From Saccharibacter sp. EH611 (lineage in GTDB: Bacteria > Pseudomonadota > Alphaproteobacteria > Acetobacterales > Acetobacteraceae): DNA of 64,000 bases. Location of the stretch: positions 1 through 64,000 of the forward strand of contig NZ_WVHP01000002.1 in assembly GCF_009834765.1 (NCBI RefSeq), read 5' to 3'. Below the pieces are notes generated by a model. That model was not told where the DNA came from. It searched no databases and was given only the letters and a program-made list of their open reading frames with translations. The translations under genes were made by a program, and so were the position numbers. Shown in pieces: positions 14,759 to 61,178 of the stretch. Position 1 is the stretch's first letter. Every line of letters starts with the position of its first letter.

Positions 14759-15325
14759 CTACGAAGGGGCGTTTGATAAGCTTTCCTTATGCAAGAGCTG
14801 AGTAGAAGGTAAGACGCGAGCTTGGGCCATAGAGAGCGCCGAAAGAAAGGCTGCGTTGACTTGGGTTGTATCAAGACTGATACCTTGCTGGTTGACACGT
14901 TGAGCAGCGATCGCATCGTCGCAAATCGTCACCTGGTAGCCTAGATCCAAGGCAGCGCGGGCTGTAGCGTCGATACACATTTGCGTCATCGCGCCAATAA
15001 GAATGACGTGTTTGCACCCCAATTTAAGAAGATGTTTGTTTAGGCTAGTTTTATGGAAAGAGTTGGGAAATTCTTTGGTAATAATTGTCTCATGAGACAA
15101 GGGTTTGACACACTCGTGAATGAGAGCACCTTGAGTGCCAGCACATAAAAACTTCCCCATTCCTTTGGGGAAAATATGTTGAATATGAACAACAGAAAGA
15201 TCATTTTTACGTGCAGCGTTGAGGATGTTTTGACAACGCAATCCAACCTCTACCATCTCAGGAAGTGGGAACTTTCCGTTTGGGAAGTAATCATTCTGGA
15301 TATCGATAAGAAGAAGAGCAGTCAT
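14759..15325 (-). CDS. Isochorismatase-family cysteine hydrolase
   Basis: The 188-residue protein has the catalytic triad layout of this alpha/beta hydrolase family: Asp near 8-11 (LLIDIQNDYF), Lys near 84 (IITKEFPNSF) and the nucleophilic Cys near 117 (GAMTQMCIDATARAA), preceded by a cis-peptide-type GAM turn. Family members cleave nicotinamide, ureidoacrylate, N-carbamoyl compounds or isochorismate. The substrate is not readable, but it is the last of four same-strand genes after a TonB receptor, an NCS1 permease and a GlxA-type regulator, suggesting an imported amide or ureido compound. The gap to the preceding gene is 128 bases. Confidence 0.88.
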   Translation of the reverse strand: MTALLLIDIQNDYFPNGKFPLPEMVEVGLRCQNILNAARKNDLSVVHIQHIFPKGMGKFLCAGTQGALIHECVKPLSHETIITKEFPNSFHKTSLNKHLLKLGCKHVILIGAMTQMCIDATARAALDLGYQVTICDDAIAAQRVNQQGISLDTTQVNAAFLSALSMAQARVLPSTQLLHKESLSNAPS

Positions 15326-15453
15326 TAAGAGAATCCTTGCAAGATGAGAAATGTAGGTAATTTAAGCATCTGTTGATGACTGTAGAGTAAAGAGAATTAT
15401 GAGGGAGTTAAATGATCGAAAAAGACAAAAATGAGTCCAAAAATGACATTGAT

Positions 15454-16407
15454 TTAGGAAAGTTTTGAACGATGCCGATAAACAGCGGGAGAGAAGCCGG
15501 TTGCACGTTTAAAAGCGCGTCGAAAAGCTCCGAGTTCGCTATATCCTGCGTCCCATGCGATTTGAGTGATGGACTTACAGGTGGTGGCAATATCATGTTT
15601 TGATTTGTTCATTATATAATGGAGGAGATAATCTTTTGGGGTCATCCCTGTTGCCCTTTTAAAGCGGCGTAGAAATGTGCGCTGTGTGAGGCCACTTGCA
15701 TCAGCAAAACTGGAGACTGTTACGGAGGTTCCATCTGCTTTTTCCAGCCATTCTTGTGCTTTAAGAATGAATTTGTCTGAATGATTGATAGAAGGATATT
15801 CGGCGATAGAAGGGCGATACTGTTCATGCGTTGGCGTAACGAACATGAAATGAGCCGTTCTTTCTCTTGCTTCCTCTCCGAAGATACGACCAATAAGATG
15901 CAGCCCCAGTTCAACCCACGCCATGAGTCCGCTAGCCGTTATGATACGGCCATTATCAATGAGAACCTGCTGGACATCAGCAGTAACGGCTGGAAATTGT
16001 TGTGTAAGCTTCTCTTTATACGACCAATGCGTGGTAGCTTTTTGTCCATCAAGAAGCTTAGTTGCAGCAACTAAGAACGTGCCTGCGCAAGCCGCTGTTA
16101 TGAAGGCTCCTTGTTGGTACCAAGAGGTCAGCTTTTGGAGGAGAGCACTGTGGCGTTTGGGATCAGGAATGCCTTCAAGGCTTGGAGGGATAATGATGAT
16201 ATGACGTAGATGAGGTTCAAGAGTGGGAAGGCTATCCTCGTAGCAAATTTGACTCAAAAGGTTAGGCCGTCTGGAGCTATGTTTATGTGCTATCAACGCG
16301 ACGGAGAAAAGATCTTGCAAGCCATATATAGCGGCGGATTGTGCCGTTTCATAATGAATGATGGTAATTTTTGTCGCGATAGATGCCATTTTAAGATGTG
16401 AGGTCAT
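15454..16407 (-). CDS. GlxA-type AraC-family transcriptional regulator
   Basis: The 317-residue protein has two domains: about 10-180 a DJ-1/PfpI (class I amidotransferase-like) sensor domain with a cysteine in a nucleophile-elbow-like context (ITAACAGTFLVAATKLLDG), and about 215-315 a double-HTH AraC domain (SVTVSSFADASGLTQRTFLR; ITQIAWDAGYSELGAFRRAF). GlxA-type regulators often control uptake and breakdown of small nitrogen compounds such as betaine, arginine or nicotinate. It starts 24 bases after the NCS1 permease stop, so it is probably co-transcribed with it. I expect it to sense the substrate of this cassette. Confidence 0.92.
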   Translation of the reverse strand: MTSHLKMASIATKITIIHYETAQSAAIYGLQDLFSVALIAHKHSSRRPNLLSQICYEDSLPTLEPHLRHIIIIPPSLEGIPDPKRHSALLQKLTSWYQQGAFITAACAGTFLVAATKLLDGQKATTHWSYKEKLTQQFPAVTADVQQVLIDNGRIITASGLMAWVELGLHLIGRIFGEEARERTAHFMFVTPTHEQYRPSIAEYPSINHSDKFILKAQEWLEKADGTSVTVSSFADASGLTQRTFLRRFKRATGMTPKDYLLHYIMNKSKHDIATTCKSITQIAWDAGYSELGAFRRAFKRATGFSPAVYRHRSKLS

Positions 16408-16431
16408 AGGAAAGGGCTCGTCAGGGAGGGG

Positions 16432-17778
16432 CTAAGGTTCTTTTTTCCAATGCAGCGCTAGGTAAGAACTGGTTGCACTCCCAAGAGAGATCAGCCAGGA
16501 GACGTCAATCCCATGGAGGGAAGCGAGTAGGGGGCCATGATAAAATTTTAGGTTGAGAAAGGGGATGCCTGCAACAATTCCAATGAGATAGCTGAGGATC
16601 GCAGGTTTATTAACACGACCATATTGGCCACCGTTTTTTTGAAAAAAAGAAGGTACGTCATAGTGACCTTTTTGGATGATATAAAAATCAACAAGATTGA
16701 TGGCTGTCCAAGGAATCATAACGATCATGAGAATATCTAAAATAGCCGTATAAGTTGCATTAAAAGCGTCTGACATGAAAAGTGCAATGCAGATTGCAAG
16801 GATAACAGTAAGTGTACTGATGGTGAGGCGCGTTAGCCCGCGCGGGTGCCAGTGTGGTTTGAATGTGTGCCAAAATGTGATGGTGGCTAACGTACTGCAA
16901 TAGAGATCCATTGCGTTAGCAAAGGCGATAGAAAGCCCGAGAATAAGGACAATAAGAACCCCCCATCCTCCGGTGATATGACCAATAGCGGCAATTGTCG
17001 AAAGAGGAGATTGCGCGGCCAGAAAAGCTCCTGTGGCCATTGCTAGAAATGATCCGCCTACAGTTCCACTATAGCAAGCGAGGAAGACGCGTGGATAGGT
17101 TTTAGGGTTGGCAGGAAGATAGCGTGAGGAGTCAGAGACGTAAGGAGCAGTCGCAATTTGCCATAAAACAGCGATAGAAAAACTTTGTAAAAATCCGGGA
17201 ATAGAGCCATGCCAGTCGGTCAAAATCTGTTGCGTATGCCCTGAAAGCCCGAGGACAAAGCATAGAATAACGACGAGTGTTGTGAGGATAGAGAGCGGTG
17301 ATGCACAGGCTTGGATGGTGCGATAGCCGATAATACAGGGGATAAAGCTGAGCAACGCCATGACAAGAATAGCCGTATGGCGGTGGAGCGTGGGCTGAAC
17401 AAATTGCAGCGTTTCTCCCCCGACAACGCAGTTTGACGCAACAAAACTGATATACATAACGATGACCATCATAATGATAGGCACCGCGCCCCAGCTGCCG
17501 AATTGCCCACGACTTTGGATCATTTGAGGCACGCCCAAGATAGGGCCTTGCACGGCATGAAGCGCCATAAAAAACCCACCGATAAGGTTTCCCAATAACA
17601 ATGCTATGGCCGACCAAAGGAAGGAAAGATGGTATTCTGCAGGCCCCATTGCTCCTGTAACAACGGTGAGGAGGGTCATGTTGCTGCTGAACCAAATCGT
17701 AAATTGGCTGTACGGACGGCCATACCGTCCCTGTTCAGGGATGGGGTAGATTGTATGTTGTTCGATCGGCGACGTCAT
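16432..17778 (-). CDS. NCS1-family nucleobase/cation symporter (cytosine-permease-like)
   Basis: The 448-residue membrane protein has about 12 hydrophobic helices. The start (YSQFTIWFSSNMTLLTVVTG) and the VPQMIQSRGQFGSWGAV motif after helix 2-3 are hallmarks of NCS1 transporters, which import cytosine, uracil, allantoin, hydantoins or related rings with Na+ or H+. A GAGGAGG ribosome site precedes the ATG. It lies 97 bases after the TonB-receptor stop and 24 bases before GlxA, on the same strand. This makes an outer-membrane to inner-membrane import route plausible. The exact substrate is unknown. Confidence 0.9.
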   Translation of the reverse strand: MTSPIEQHTIYPIPEQGRYGRPYSQFTIWFSSNMTLLTVVTGAMGPAEYHLSFLWSAIALLLGNLIGGFFMALHAVQGPILGVPQMIQSRGQFGSWGAVPIIMMVIVMYISFVASNCVVGGETLQFVQPTLHRHTAILVMALLSFIPCIIGYRTIQACASPLSILTTLVVILCFVLGLSGHTQQILTDWHGSIPGFLQSFSIAVLWQIATAPYVSDSSRYLPANPKTYPRVFLACYSGTVGGSFLAMATGAFLAAQSPLSTIAAIGHITGGWGVLIVLILGLSIAFANAMDLYCSTLATITFWHTFKPHWHPRGLTRLTISTLTVILAICIALFMSDAFNATYTAILDILMIVMIPWTAINLVDFYIIQKGHYDVPSFFQKNGGQYGRVNKPAILSYLIGIVAGIPFLNLKFYHGPLLASLHGIDVSWLISLGSATSSYLALHWKKEP

Positions 17779-17875
17779 AAAGGGGACTTCCTCCTCAGGG
17801 GGCGCATCATGCCGCGTTTCTTAAAAAGACGGTAGCCCCTTTACGAAGAGAGATACTCACGAGAGAATTCTGCCC

Positions 17876-20323
17876 TTAAAGGCTGACATTGATGCGGCCA
17901 TAATAATACCCTCCCGTCATTGGAATACCCGCCGAGTTGTTGTCGTAAAAAAGTGTGCCTAAATAAGAGTTTTCTAAGGGCATCCGGCGTGGACGTACGT
18001 TGAAGAGGTTATTCCCGCCAACAGCGAGGTGAATCCGTTTAGTGGCTTGGAAACCCACTTCAAGATCCGTTAGCCACGCAGGAGTATTCACAAAACGATG
18101 AAATTGGCTTTGTGAATATTGGAGTGCTGCAGGCGCTTGGTCTTGATACGTAACGTTATTAACGGTTTCACCATAGCGCGTCTGACGTACATTGACGCTC
18201 CATTTTCCAATCGTCCAATAGGCGTTCAAGATGATTTTACTGCGTGGTGATGCCGTTGTGAGATACCCAATCTGCTGTGCGTTCAGGAAAGGTGACCCAG
18301 TACCGTCCGTTGCAAGATGACTGATACGGGTGCGGTTCAAGTTCAGAGCCATGCTGAGGTTAAGGTGTCCGTAGCGGCGAAGGCTGAGGGCGTAATCCGC
18401 CATGATATCAAGCCCCTGCGTGCGGGTGCTTGCCCCATTGGCAAAGTAGGTCGCTGTGACATTATCAGATGCGAGGCCGCCAGGAAGCGTCGCACCTGTC
18501 AGACCGATAGCATTTTCAGCAGCCCCGCCTTGGAAGCTGCCACCAGGGGCGATGCGATTACGGATATTGATCTGGTAAGCATCAACGGACACGTGGAAAT
18601 TATCAACGGGCTCCATCACAAAACCGCCACTCAAGGATGTTGAGCGCTCAGCTTTAAGGCGTTGGGCGCCCAATGAGCTTGCTGCGGGAGAGTTCACCGG
18701 GAGGCTGGCAGAAGCGCCAAAAGGTGTGACGTTGAGGGCGCTATAATGTTCTTCCAGAAGCGTTGGGGCACGGTACCCGTTACTAATGGTTGCACGTACG
18801 GCAAAACGCTTCGTGAAATCATACCGAGCGGCTACCTTCCCTGTCTCTGCGTTGCCTGTATCGGTGTAATGCTCAAAGCGGCCACCAACATCAATGTCCA
18901 GCTTACGTGTTGGGTGAAAATCAGTGTCGATATATCCCGCCCAGACATCGCGGTTCCATCGTCCTGCATTTTCAGGCATGAGGCCTGCAAAGCCTTGTGT
19001 TCCGCCTTTATAGTAGGAAACAGGATCCCCCGCACCGATATGGTAAATCTCCAGCCGATGCTGCCCACCAAAGGAGAGGTTGATAAAACGACCGGAACCC
19101 AAAGAGAATTTACGGCTAATATTGAGGTCATTCGTCCATTGCATATGGTTGAATGTTTCTGTGCGGGCTTTGGTTGGGCTAGATCCATAGTCAGCGTAGT
19201 AGGCGGGGTTAGCCGTGTTCTTGAGGGACATATGGTCGTCATCAAAACCATAGGTTGTGTTTAAGTCCCACTTAAACCCAGCGGGGAGGCGACCTTTAAG
19301 CCCAAGCGTAATGGCAAAGTCCTGCTCCTCAAGCGCTTCGATGGGCACAAAACCCTGCGGGTACATCTGCGGTAAAATATCAGGCGTTCGGTAATCTTGA
19401 TATGATTCTCCATGCCGGTGGGCATAGGTCGCAAAACCGTAGAGCTCCAGAGAGCGTGTCAGATGTTTTCCGGCATTCAGACTGAGGGTTTGGCGTGTTT
19501 CTTCTGAGAGGCTAAGAGCAGGGTCATCCGAAACGCCAGTGCGGGAATCAATCCCTTTCTGCACGAAATGATCCGTATGGTACATTTGCCCGCTGAGATT
19601 GGCATAGCCGTCATCGCCAAGCGGGAGGCCGCCATCAAAGCCAAACTGATACTGCCACCCATCGCCATTATAAGCGTTGGCGCCGGTTTGGGCATCCATA
19701 TCAAGGTGAGAGACAGTTTTTTTGAGGATGATGTTAACAACGCCAGCAATCCCATCCGCGCCATATTGAGAAGCAGCTCCGTCTCTTAAGACTTCAATAT
19801 GGTCAATCGCCTCTGCTGGGATCATGTTGAGATCCACAGGGCTGGAGCCTTCCTGCGGCCCAGAATCTGCGTAAATATTAGCCGTTGTATGGCGGCGCTT
19901 TCCATTAATCAGAACAAGCGTATGGTTAGGGTTAAGCCCTCTGAGACGGATTGATGAGGTAAAAGCGCCAGCATCATAACCTGCCGTCCCAATTGTGACA
20001 GACGGATTTACGCGCGCTAGAGCATCCGCCAGATTGATAGCGCCGGTGCGATGAAGCTGTTGAGCTGAGATAATATCGACAGGTGTTGTGCTCGCCCGTG
20101 CGCGGCGAAGGGGGGTGTTGTGTGCCGTGACGCTAAGGGTCTCAGGAGAATGTGCGGTGAGAAACCTTTTCTTCTTATGGTGCTGTAGTGCCGATGAATG
20201 TTTATGGGATGTCGCAATGGGATGATGGGAAGAGCGTTTCCCGTCAGACAGTTGGTCTGCGTAAGCGGAGGAAGCGAACAGAAGGGTAACGGGGAGAACC
20301 AAAATTCTGTTCTGACAACGCAT
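17876..20323 (-). CDS. TonB-dependent outer-membrane receptor
   Basis: The 815-residue protein starts with a signal peptide (MRCQNRILVLPVTLLFASSA, cleavage after AYA), then a His/Ser/Lys-rich stretch, then the plug domain (about 75-200: STTPVDIISAQQLHRTGAI; HIEVLRDGAASQYGADGIAG), and a 22-strand type barrel with a C-terminal Phe-like ending (RINVSL). It imports a bulky or scarce ligand using TonB energy. The plug and barrel type is the one often annotated for iron or vitamin compounds, but the ligand cannot be told. The NCS1 permease follows on the same strand 97 bases later, suggesting a common substrate. Confidence 0.93.
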   Translation of the reverse strand: MRCQNRILVLPVTLLFASSAYADQLSDGKRSSHHPIATSHKHSSALQHHKKKRFLTAHSPETLSVTAHNTPLRRARASTTPVDIISAQQLHRTGAINLADALARVNPSVTIGTAGYDAGAFTSSIRLRGLNPNHTLVLINGKRRHTTANIYADSGPQEGSSPVDLNMIPAEAIDHIEVLRDGAASQYGADGIAGVVNIILKKTVSHLDMDAQTGANAYNGDGWQYQFGFDGGLPLGDDGYANLSGQMYHTDHFVQKGIDSRTGVSDDPALSLSEETRQTLSLNAGKHLTRSLELYGFATYAHRHGESYQDYRTPDILPQMYPQGFVPIEALEEQDFAITLGLKGRLPAGFKWDLNTTYGFDDDHMSLKNTANPAYYADYGSSPTKARTETFNHMQWTNDLNISRKFSLGSGRFINLSFGGQHRLEIYHIGAGDPVSYYKGGTQGFAGLMPENAGRWNRDVWAGYIDTDFHPTRKLDIDVGGRFEHYTDTGNAETGKVAARYDFTKRFAVRATISNGYRAPTLLEEHYSALNVTPFGASASLPVNSPAASSLGAQRLKAERSTSLSGGFVMEPVDNFHVSVDAYQINIRNRIAPGGSFQGGAAENAIGLTGATLPGGLASDNVTATYFANGASTRTQGLDIMADYALSLRRYGHLNLSMALNLNRTRISHLATDGTGSPFLNAQQIGYLTTASPRSKIILNAYWTIGKWSVNVRQTRYGETVNNVTYQDQAPAALQYSQSQFHRFVNTPAWLTDLEVGFQATKRIHLAVGGNNLFNVRPRRMPLENSYLGTLFYDNNSAGIPMTGGYYYGRINVSL

Positions 20324-20533
20324 GTGAGAGAGCTCCGGCTGAAGAGGGATGAGTGAGGAGCTACACGGTTAGTGAAAGAGCATTAAATATCAACGATTTT
20401 ATCACGTGTTTAAGGATATAATAGAAAAATATATGTGTATTGTGTCGTCGATGACACATAATAGCCACAATAAATGGAAGATATTTGGCTATCGTTATGT
20501 CTTTTTAGCGAAAAGAGCCGGTTCTCGCCTCTG

Positions 20534-21096
20534 TTAATTCTTGAGATAATCTGCTGTAGCAGCGGTGAGGATCATGGAGAGAAAGGAGAAGGCGGTCTTT
20601 TCATATCGGGTTGTGACAGCCCGTCATTTCTTGAGCCTTGCCCACAGGTTTTCAATCAGATGGCGATGCCTGTAAGGCCATTTTGGACAACTGACGTCAG
20701 ACTCGTCTCGTCATGTTGGAATAACAGGATGCGCTCCATGGTCTCTCTGGCTTCTTGTGTATCCCCTTTTTTAGTCGTCCCGACTGCTTTGTGATGAGCG
20801 CGAGTCATCTGACCATCAAGGGAAACCACGCCCAAGGCTGAATCTTTGCGACTGACCTTGTCAAAAAGACGTTTTCAAATACCAAGTTTTGACTACCAAA
20901 TAAACAATTGAGCAGCAATCCACCAAGAGTCAAATCTAGAGGGTAAGGTACGCCATTTTGCACCGTTCTGATGCTGCCAGAAAATCGTTCGACGAAGGTT
21001 CTTGCGCGGCGTCTTTCCTTTTGGACGGACATCCTCAATAAGAGGCTCTCTATCATACTCGTGACAGAGAAATAGGCAGCCTGCTCTGTCTTTCAA
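20534..21096 (-). pseudogene. Degenerate IS5-family transposase, copy 3
   Basis: Minus-strand frames give an N-terminal block (PLIEDVRPKGKTPRKNLRRT, then FWQHQNGAKWRTLPSRFDSW) and a C-terminal block (YRHRHLIENLWARLKK, then a stop, then RAVTTRYEKTA, ending DYLKN-stop at 20534). The central DDE region is mostly deleted and in-frame stops are present. It belongs to the same transposase family as copies 1, 2 and 4. It lies between the TonB receptor and the methyltransferase gene. Confidence 0.82.
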
Positions 21097-21307
21097 GAAA
21101 TAACGGGCCCTAATGAATGTTTCCAGAAAGCTGCTAATCAGAGCGATGCAGAATAAAAATGACGCATTTATAGAGATATGAGTAATTACCTATCAGAAAA
21201 AGTTACTCAAAACGATCTGAAAAGATTTACAGACGATCTCATCCTAAGCACTCTAATTGGATCATCATTAGAGATGAAAAAAGAACATATTCGAGGAAGC
21301 GACGCTT

Positions 21308-22243
21308 TTACCTTTCTTTGGAAAGTTGTGCGATATGCTCTGGGCCAATTCCACAGCATCCACCGATAATGCTTGCTCCTGCATGCGCCCATTGTGCTGC
21401 AAAAGAGGCGTAGCGCTGGGGGGTAAGGTCTTCATCAAGAGTGCTGATGGCTTCGTTTGCTTCCTCACCTTGTCCGTGGTCATGGCTTACGAAAGCGTTC
21501 GCATAGACACCAAGGCGAGGGCGTTTTCCCTCCGGTTCGGAGCGTATACACTCAGAGGCTGCTATGAGGGCCGGTTCCATAATGCGTGGGTCGCTACAAT
21601 TGAAAAGAACCCCATCAATACCTAAAGGAAGCATAGCGTGTAGAGCGTTTACCAATCGCTCTCCAGACCGTAACGTAATGGAGATGTGGTTGTTAGATGA
21701 AAGTGATTGAATTTGGCTATCATCTAGCGTGAAAGAGACCCAGAAGGGACGTTTATCGTTACGATCTATCATTTGTCGTGCCGTTTGAGCTTCGGCAATA
21801 GAGCTTTGTGTTTCAGCAAGCCATAGATCAACAGAAGGCGATAGGCCCTTTATGAGAGTTGAAAGAATATATTGGGCTCGTGATTGATCAAAAAGATCTG
21901 GACGATAAGAGCCCCCCGTTGGAGGGAGAGATCCCGCTAAGGACGCGGAAGAAGGGCGTGTATTCTGTATGGCCTCTCGGCCAAGTCTTCCAGCGAGACG
22001 AGCCAATTCTTCCCCATGTCGTTGAAAACGTTCATCCCCAATATGATAAGGAACCACGGCATAACTATTAGCGGTGATAATGTTTGCGCCAGCATTAATA
22101 TAAGCTTCATGGGCTTTGCGAACAAAGTCCGGCCCTTCAAATAAGGCCAGTGCAGACCATTCAGGTTGTTTAAACGGAGCACCCATACGGTGGAGTTCGC
22201 GGCCCATACCGCCATCTAAAATAAGAGTGTTTTGTGCCGACAT
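21308..22243 (-). CDS. Homocysteine S-methyltransferase family protein
   Basis: The 311-residue protein has a Pfam homocysteine-S-methyltransferase barrel (MmuM/BHMT-like), which transfers a methyl group from S-methylmethionine, betaine or a similar donor to homocysteine. Zinc ligands are visible: Cys in LFNCSDP (near 215) and the GGCCGIGP pair close to the C-terminus. The N-terminus (LILDGGMGRELHRMGAP) is characteristic. I chose ATG at 22243 because the family starts there; an upstream GTG adds 23 residues without resemblance. The methyl donor is unknown. The N-formylglutamate amidohydrolase gene ends 93 bases upstream on the same strand. Confidence 0.9.
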   Translation of the reverse strand: MSAQNTLILDGGMGRELHRMGAPFKQPEWSALALFEGPDFVRKAHEAYINAGANIITANSYAVVPYHIGDERFQRHGEELARLAGRLGREAIQNTRPSSASLAGSLPPTGGSYRPDLFDQSRAQYILSTLIKGLSPSVDLWLAETQSSIAEAQTARQMIDRNDKRPFWVSFTLDDSQIQSLSSNNHISITLRSGERLVNALHAMLPLGIDGVLFNCSDPRIMEPALIAASECIRSEPEGKRPRLGVYANAFVSHDHGQGEEANEAISTLDEDLTPQRYASFAAQWAHAGASIIGGCCGIGPEHIAQLSKER

Positions 22244-22336
22244 GGATGAACTTTGCTCAGTAAAACGGATACAGCCGGTCGCCTCTATACTGTTTACCGG
22301 AAGGAATGTCACGGGGAGGCATCATTTTGATATGTT

Positions 22337-23305: not shown

Positions 23306-23380
23306 GGGCGCATAGCTCAGCGGTAGAGCACTACCTTGACATGGTAGGGGTCACAGGTTCAATCCCTGTTGCGCCCACCA
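23306..23380 (+). tRNA. tRNA-Val(GAC)
   Basis: Cloverleaf by eye: acceptor GGGCGCA/TGCGCCC, D arm with AGCTCAGCGGTAGAGC, anticodon stem CTACC/GGTAG with loop TTGACAT (anticodon GAC, valine), T arm with CAGGTTCAATCCCTG, encoded CCA. All stems pair well. Confidence 0.95.
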
Positions 23381-60987: not shown

Positions 60988-61021
60988 TTAGGATATGAGC
61001 ATATAAGGCATTCATGCTTTC

Positions 61022-61114
61022 CTGTCCCTTCGCCGGCATGACCCGGATCAGGTTCAAAGGGTCCAGCTCACGCTATCTCAGCCCTCTTTCAAAAAGAGGG
61101 CACCCCTCGGAACA
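61022..61114 (-). promoter_or_regulatory. TPP riboswitch (THI element) for the thiamin operon
   Basis: On the minus strand: GAGGGGTGCC, a P3 hairpin (CCTCTTTTTGAAAGAGGG), the conserved GGCTGAGATAG motif, and later ACCCTTTGAACCTGATCCGG with GTCATGCCGGCGAAGGGA. These are the two core parts of the thiamin pyrophosphate aptamer. It ends about 86 bases before the thiC ATG. Repression by TPP is expected; whether it acts on transcription or translation is not clear, but no terminator hairpin with a T-run was seen, which favours translation. Confidence 0.95.
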
Positions 61115-61178
61115 ACTCTTACGCTATGCTCCCTTATTCTAAGCGTCAAGAAACAACGTAAAATTTATCTTTCTCATT

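Follow-up and report, generated by a model that had tools for sequence, protein, structure and literature searches.

The 64,000-nucleotide stretch of Saccharibacter sp. EH611 analysed here (positions 1 to 64,000 of contig NZ_WVHP01000002.1, hereafter the window) carries a block of three genes on one strand, encoding a stand-alone homocysteine S-methyltransferase (HMT), a TonB-dependent outer-membrane receptor (TBDT) and an NCS1-family symporter, and the order HMT-TBDT-NCS1 was identical in all ten genomes found with an orthologue of the symporter. We favour, with moderate confidence, the reading that this block is a cassette which takes up a scarce methyl donor and remethylates homocysteine to methionine. 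A sequence-only reading of the same DNA had joined TBDT and NCS1 to the genes for a GlxA-like regulator and a cysteine hydrolase, as a single path from the outer membrane to the cleavage of a heterocycle. All four ORFs do exist on the minus strand, spaced 97, 24 and 128 bases apart, and each was matched to its family by Pfam. That unit stops one gene short, and the HMT gene at 21308-22312 belongs to it. The assembly comprises 25 contigs of approximately 2.28 Mb in total, and Saccharibacter floricola DSM 15669 is a close relative whose NCS1 protein is 95% identical. The genes of the block in EH611 are:

21308-22312, minus strand: HMT, stand-alone zinc-type homocysteine S-methyltransferase (PF02574 5.8e-57; 334 aa from GTG)
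17876-20323, minus strand: TBDT, TonB-dependent outer-membrane receptor (815 aa; Pfam plug 1.9e-23, barrel 1e-34)
16432-17778, minus strand: NCS1-family inner-membrane symporter (448 aa; Pfam PF02133 6.5e-39)

NCS1 neighbourhoods were compared between genomes, and orthologues of at least 64% identity were found in ten: EH611, S. floricola (L033), a metagenome-assembled genome (L034), six Bombella or Bombella-like genomes (L035-L040) and G101 (L043), of which L034-L040 are referred to as the Bombella-type loci (n=7). In the nine genomes other than EH611 the TBDT orthologues are 75-98% identical and adjoin NCS1, while the NCS1 orthologues are 64-95% identical and lie downstream of TBDT. The TBDT-NCS1 side of the set first proposed is therefore more than chance, since the pair occurs in 10/10 orthologous loci found. 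In all seven Bombella-type loci the stop codon of HMT is followed after 34-56 bases by the ATG of TBDT, with a GGAG-type ribosome-binding site, and TBDT and NCS1 are separated by 31-41 bases, a spacing that looks operon-like. The corresponding gaps are 218 and 43 bases in G101 and 317 and 96 bases in S. floricola. An importer gene is tightly linked with HMT and kept in relatives, which by spacing and order is the arrangement of an mmuPM-type pair. A scan for promoters and terminators gave counts near chance (16 vs 13.4 and 14 vs 10.0).

The position of the block differs between lineages. In the Bombella-type loci and in G101 it is flanked by a 182-aa gene on one side and by tRNA-Gly(ccc) on the other, with metZ beyond the tRNA (as located by ARAGORN). 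In EH611 and S. floricola the tRNA-Gly/metZ site is without the block while all three genes sit together near tRNA-Val(gac), and the three genes thus moved as a unit. A formylglutamate-amidohydrolase-like gene lies between the block and tRNA-Val in both genomes (95% in L033) and is not beside HMT in L034-L040 or L043. In two further genomes with the same genus code as the Bombella genomes (G272 and G295) the site is empty, the 182-aa-type gene being followed after 49 bases by tRNA-Gly, and neither genome gave a PF02574 match at 1e-20, a close NCS1 or a TBDT match at 1e-40. Gene order, operon-like spacing, relocation and absence of the block can all be read from the assemblies compared. Site-specific integration at the tRNA genes was considered and rejected: in three Bombella-type loci the 3' end of tRNA-Gly has no further exact copy of 12-20 bases, and neither end of tRNA-Val is repeated exactly over 12-20 bases elsewhere in the window. 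We also rejected metZ, which comes after NCS1 in Bombella, as a functional partner of the block, as it has its own SAM-II riboswitch (present before metZ in all six Bombella-type and G101 loci scanned), is separated from the block by tRNA-Gly and stays where the block is absent. Around HMT in EH611 we find:

20440-21110, minus strand: IS5-family transposase remnant in the HMT-TBDT gap (approximately 72-75% to Acetobacter and Komagataeibacter plasmid stretches)
22337-23266, minus strand: N-formylglutamate amidohydrolase-like gene upstream of HMT (PF05013 3.7e-66), a neighbour and not part of the core
23306-23380, plus strand: tRNA-Val(gac), the edge of the region in EH611 (ARAGORN)

The HMT protein was placed in PF02574 by its profile match and by three cysteines, Cys239, Cys319 and Cys320, which are invariant in 16/16 aligned rows including E. 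coli MmuM and which we take to be zinc ligands; translation more likely begins at residue 24, an ATG at 22243. With 115.5 bits against the PRK09485 cut-off of 215 it does not qualify as an MmuM orthologue, and since its neighbours are TBDT and NCS1, not a dppABCD-like ABC transporter or an ArcD-like permease, it falls outside MHT1 and MHT2 as well. In a tree of 45 HMTs, drawn from loci with a listed HMT ORF, all ten HMTs of the block fall into a single clade (100/100), which is nested in a group of 20 rows (91/86) where ABC-linked HMTs are found too, with MmuM distant. To look at such relatives, 15 plasmid loci were picked by hand and not at random from the best 20 and 40 of 234 records, one of them being unannotated; 11 of the 14 annotated loci have importer genes on the same strand beside the HMT relative, namely a four-gene/family-5 ABC importer (five loci), an amino-acid/opine-type ABC importer (five) or an amino-acid permease (one). 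A role of HMT as the sole route to methionine was rejected, as a MetE-type gene (PF01717) is present in 15/17 genomes examined and MetF in 10/10; the MetE-type gene of EH611 is a 772-aa frame, and two of the 15 genomes had only a 351-aa frame. Given that EH611 has both the MetE-type gene and MetF, HMT would be an addition that, with the rest of the block, serves salvage.

The symporter is a clear member of the NCS1 family (PF02133, 134.4 bits against a cut-off of 23.5), and a profile of its alignment matches Mhp1 at 1.7e-06, in keeping with a family relation to NCS1 permeases such as Mhp1, CodB, PucI and MetT. It scored below the NCBIfam cut-offs for CytX (TIGR02358, 62.8 vs 309.85 bits) and ncs1 (TIGR00800, 86.8 vs 353.1). 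Unlike the known NCS1 permeases, it is linked to an HMT gene and not to a nucleobase, allantoin or hydantoin pathway. An aspartate, Asp291, at the helix-8 position aligned with Mhp1 Thr313, is found in 10/10 block NCS1s and, in its equivalent, in the three g55 sister sequences (3/3) and in the distant row L074. Since the residue is shared by L074 and by sister sequences from genomes without a stand-alone HMT, it marks the clade and is no proof of a cationic substrate. TBDT carries both the PF07715 plug and the PF00593 barrel, and has ETLSVTA at residue 61, which we take to be a TonB-box-like motif.

These assignments suggest a route in which TBDT, energised by TonB, would move the donor over the outer membrane, the NCS1 symporter would carry it over the inner membrane in symport with a cation (probably H+), and the cytosolic zinc-dependent HMT, judged by its family and the conserved zinc cysteines, would pass a methyl group to homocysteine to give methionine. 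The enzyme co-inherited with the receptor and the importer thus probably uses a methyl donor taken up from outside to form methionine. The donor is most likely a small sulfonium or quaternary-ammonium compound of plants or pollen, with S-methylmethionine as the first candidate. S-methylmethionine is plausible in this role because it is commonly made by plants, as stated in PMC3228920, and PMC8472029 and PMC11717009 suggest that dimethyl sulfide in bee pollen may come from it, one of the two giving dimethyl sulfide as found only rarely. As a donor for this enzyme it is nevertheless a guess, because HMT is only distantly related to MmuM (see below). PMC13390362 describes MetT of Aminobacter as an NCS1 protein that imports metformin, which is cationic and non-heterocyclic, although most characterised NCS1 proteins carry heterocycles, and membership of NCS1 therefore does not demand a nucleobase substrate. 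More tentatively, and with clearly less confidence than in the cassette as such, one may imagine that in these bee- or flower-associated bacteria an NCS1 protein has exchanged nucleobases for a cationic onium compound as its substrate, be it S-methylmethionine or an N-methylated plant heterocycle, and together with a TBDT feeds a dedicated HMT, so that pollen chemistry is turned into methionine.

The pairing of an importer with an HMT is itself known. In PMC3228920, MmuM, MHT1 and MHT2 of gammaproteobacteria are described as co-occurring with MmuP, a dppABCD-like ABC transporter and an ArcD-like permease respectively, and it is suggested that these clusters may be cognate transporter-enzyme pairs. 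By the same logic, TBDT and NCS1 would be the importer for the HMT of the block. Like the cassette, E. coli mmuPM has an importer gene beside a stand-alone HMT with the same three cysteines, but its importer is an amino-acid permease, whereas that of the cassette is an NCS1 symporter with a TonB-dependent receptor. With MHT1-dppABCD and MHT2-arcD the cassette shares the idea of a cognate transporter and HMT, and some of its closest HMT relatives adjoin four-gene/family-5 ABC importers; in contrast to both, it has an outer-membrane receptor and neither an ABC nor an ArcD gene. Thus the cassette works like an importer-HMT pair of the mmuPM or MHT kind, yet as tested it is no member of MmuM, MHT1 or MHT2, and what is new here is a TonB-dependent receptor and an NCS1 symporter as the proposed importer beside HMT. 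Full-text literature searches gave no description of the cassette among the matches listed (for one search the best 12 of 120). By term, methionine, homocysteine and TonB were absent from the main text of two Bombella genome papers, and the passages of PMC4239095 consulted, on methionine regulons, make no mention of TonB.

Several observations weigh against the proposed cassette. HMT shares only 27% identity with E. coli MmuM and lies outside the MmuM clade, and the 20 rows in which the block clade is nested also include L082-L085, of which L083-L085 (52-54% identical, and as near on the tree as the importer-linked HMTs) adjoin an amidase gene and not an importer. Among class-wide HMT relatives, for which 19 loci were taken from the best of 47 matching genomes (two, L115 and L126, having no listed HMT ORF), no NCS1 neighbour was found in 17 loci. 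Neither HMT nor TBDT was found to have a methionine riboswitch, SAM-II being upstream of metZ only. The HMT-TBDT gap of EH611 itself measures 984 bases; it has been widened by the IS5-family remnant, which has no ORF longer than 106 aa and for which, among the matches listed, two plasmid stretches carry the annotation IS5 family transposase. As G272 and G295 seem to be closely related, the absence of the block may reflect a single event. The AlphaFold model of NCS1 had a predicted local distance difference test score (pLDDT) of 38 and was discarded as too poor. The sister NCS1 clade consists of three g55 genomes at approximately 53% identity, in all of which the gene stands at a contig end with one flank out of sight; these genomes hold no stand-alone HMT, the single PF02574 match there being a 1207-aa MetH-like frame. 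Finally, there are eight NCS1-TBDT pairs without HMT, in L045, L061, L062, L063, L065, L070, L073 and L079. A class-wide pairing of TBDT with HMT was also considered and rejected, as ten chosen neighbours run against Pfam included three amidases adjoining HMT, one TBDT three genes off and four without a match. Within this analysis, TBDT, NCS1 and HMT were seen combined in this group alone.

The alternative that best survives is that TBDT and NCS1 alone import a nucleobase, a vitamin or another heterocycle, with HMT as a travelling bystander. A same-strand TBDT adjoins 17 of 43 NCS1 genes examined (42 loci, the EH611 window not being counted), nine of them in the block and eight elsewhere without HMT; six of the 48 loci (L048, L049, L050, L060, L067 and L076) had no listed NCS1 ORF and were left out. 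On the NCS1 tree, to which the EH611 window was added and from which one short row was left out, the TBDT-pairing state switches four times or more. NCS1 thus repeatedly has a TBDT partner in Acetobacteraceae even without HMT, which supports the idea of an import pair and also that of a bystander HMT, and the lack of a stand-alone HMT in the genomes of the sister clade points the same way as the latter. Such a bystander would, however, have to be reconciled with the tight spacing of the three genes in the Bombella-type loci, with the relocation and absence of TBDT-NCS1 together with HMT, and with the importers that HMT relatives have beside them in most of the picked loci, no other importer being found beside the HMT of EH611. 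We therefore regard a bystander HMT as unlikely, though it deserves to be taken seriously.

Other NCS1 genes were seen in further settings. Ahead of the NCS1-TBDT pair in L070 lie genes for a PhyH dioxygenase and for an ABC importer of the amino-acid type, and the pair of L063 is followed by an M20 peptidase. EH611 has a second NCS1 paralogue (49%) at G000:C1:221441-222778 (L041), with neither TBDT nor HMT adjoining. NCS1 relatives of 43-44% identity are also found on Acetobacter and Klebsiella plasmids (L267 and L268), in a cluster with GMC oxidoreductase, aldehyde dehydrogenase, RidA, DUF1028 and ArgE that gives no clue to the substrate of NCS1.

The two other genes of the four originally grouped are, in EH611:

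15454-16407, minus strand: GlxA-like AraC-family regulator (317 aa; Pfam DJ-1/PfpI and AraC helix-turn-helix)
14759-15325, minus strand: isochorismatase-family cysteine hydrolase (188 aa; Pfam 7.6e-32, PDB 3lqy_A 1.1e-35)

GlxA and the hydrolase make up a unit of their own, which adjoins the block in this lineage. They follow NCS1 in two of the ten genomes only, EH611 and S. floricola, so that the NCS1-GlxA side of the set is a lineage-specific adjacency, and in S. floricola GlxA is broken into three pieces with a stop (L033:8157-9072) while the frames of the hydrolase, NCS1 and TBDT are intact. When 249 genomes were searched, the hydrolase had its five best matches beyond the genus (39-46%) in G245, G122, G173, G061 and G135, and each of these has a GlxA match of 37-42% identity within approximately 1.4 kb of the hydrolase (four of the five regions were read, and G122 was judged from coordinates alone). 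NCS1 gave no match in three of these genomes, lies on another contig in G061 and is represented in G135 by two genes approximately 75-90 kb off. The genes are close together in the five other Acetobacteraceae as in EH611, but in the four regions read they are divergent or convergent, whereas in EH611 both are on one strand: in L249 and L250 they are divergent and 80 and 87 bases apart, and in L251 and L252 they are convergent with a 420-425 aa ORF between them (L251:7183-8460 and L252:6652-7914). The L251 copy of this ORF has no Pfam match, and both copies contain an HHAIxDT motif, which presumably resembles that of condensation or acyltransferase enzymes. In the hydrolase of EH611, D8, K84 and C117 align with 3LQY and are assumed by us to be the catalytic triad, and its scores are well below the NCBIfam cut-offs for nicotinamidase (47/174 bits), RutB (31.4/377.95) and biuret hydrolase (53.3/370).

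It is accordingly very improbable that the four genes act as a single path, with a ring nitrogen compound entering through TBDT and NCS1, being sensed by GlxA and being cleaved by the hydrolase. The genes are contiguous on one strand with only 24 bases between NCS1 and GlxA, the three hydrolase residues are conserved, and the heterocycle carriers that dominate among characterised NCS1 proteins, according to PMC13390362, would suit such a path. But 8/10 TBDT-NCS1 loci have neither GlxA nor the hydrolase beside NCS1, GlxA is broken in one of the only two genomes that have all four genes together, the GlxA-hydrolase pair occurs without a nearby NCS1 in five other genomes, and HMT is an enzyme gene with far better linkage. 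The conservation of gene content across genomes thus led us to reject the four genes as one system. What holds of the path from the outer membrane to an enzyme, as drawn in the sequence-only reading, is that TBDT-NCS1 is co-inherited with an enzyme gene (10/10 loci); GlxA and the hydrolase are not members of it, and cleavage of a heterocycle is unlikely because the linked enzyme is a methyltransferase and not a hydrolase.

Least probable of all, in our view, is the same cassette with a cationic N-methylated heterocycle such as trigonelline as donor, whose demethylation by HMT would give methionine and a vitamin precursor, for although it would reconcile NCS1, with its ring compounds, and HMT, with its onium methyl donors, and could draw on Asp291 in all ten cassette NCS1s, that residue is shared with the sister clade without HMT and with L074, and no homocysteine methyltransferase acting on trigonelline was found among the literature matches listed.

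Distant from the cassette, the window also contains a TPP riboswitch aptamer (61007-61117, minus strand, 77.7 bits).

Methyl-donor salvage is known with inner-membrane permeases, as in mmuPM. If the cassette does import a methyl donor for its HMT, it would be a case of methyl-donor salvage with an active outer-membrane receptor, and of an NCS1 protein carrying a natural substrate that is not a nucleobase. As a small and testable gene set, it would then link plant sulfonium and betaine compounds to the nutrition of the acetic acid bacteria of the bee hive.

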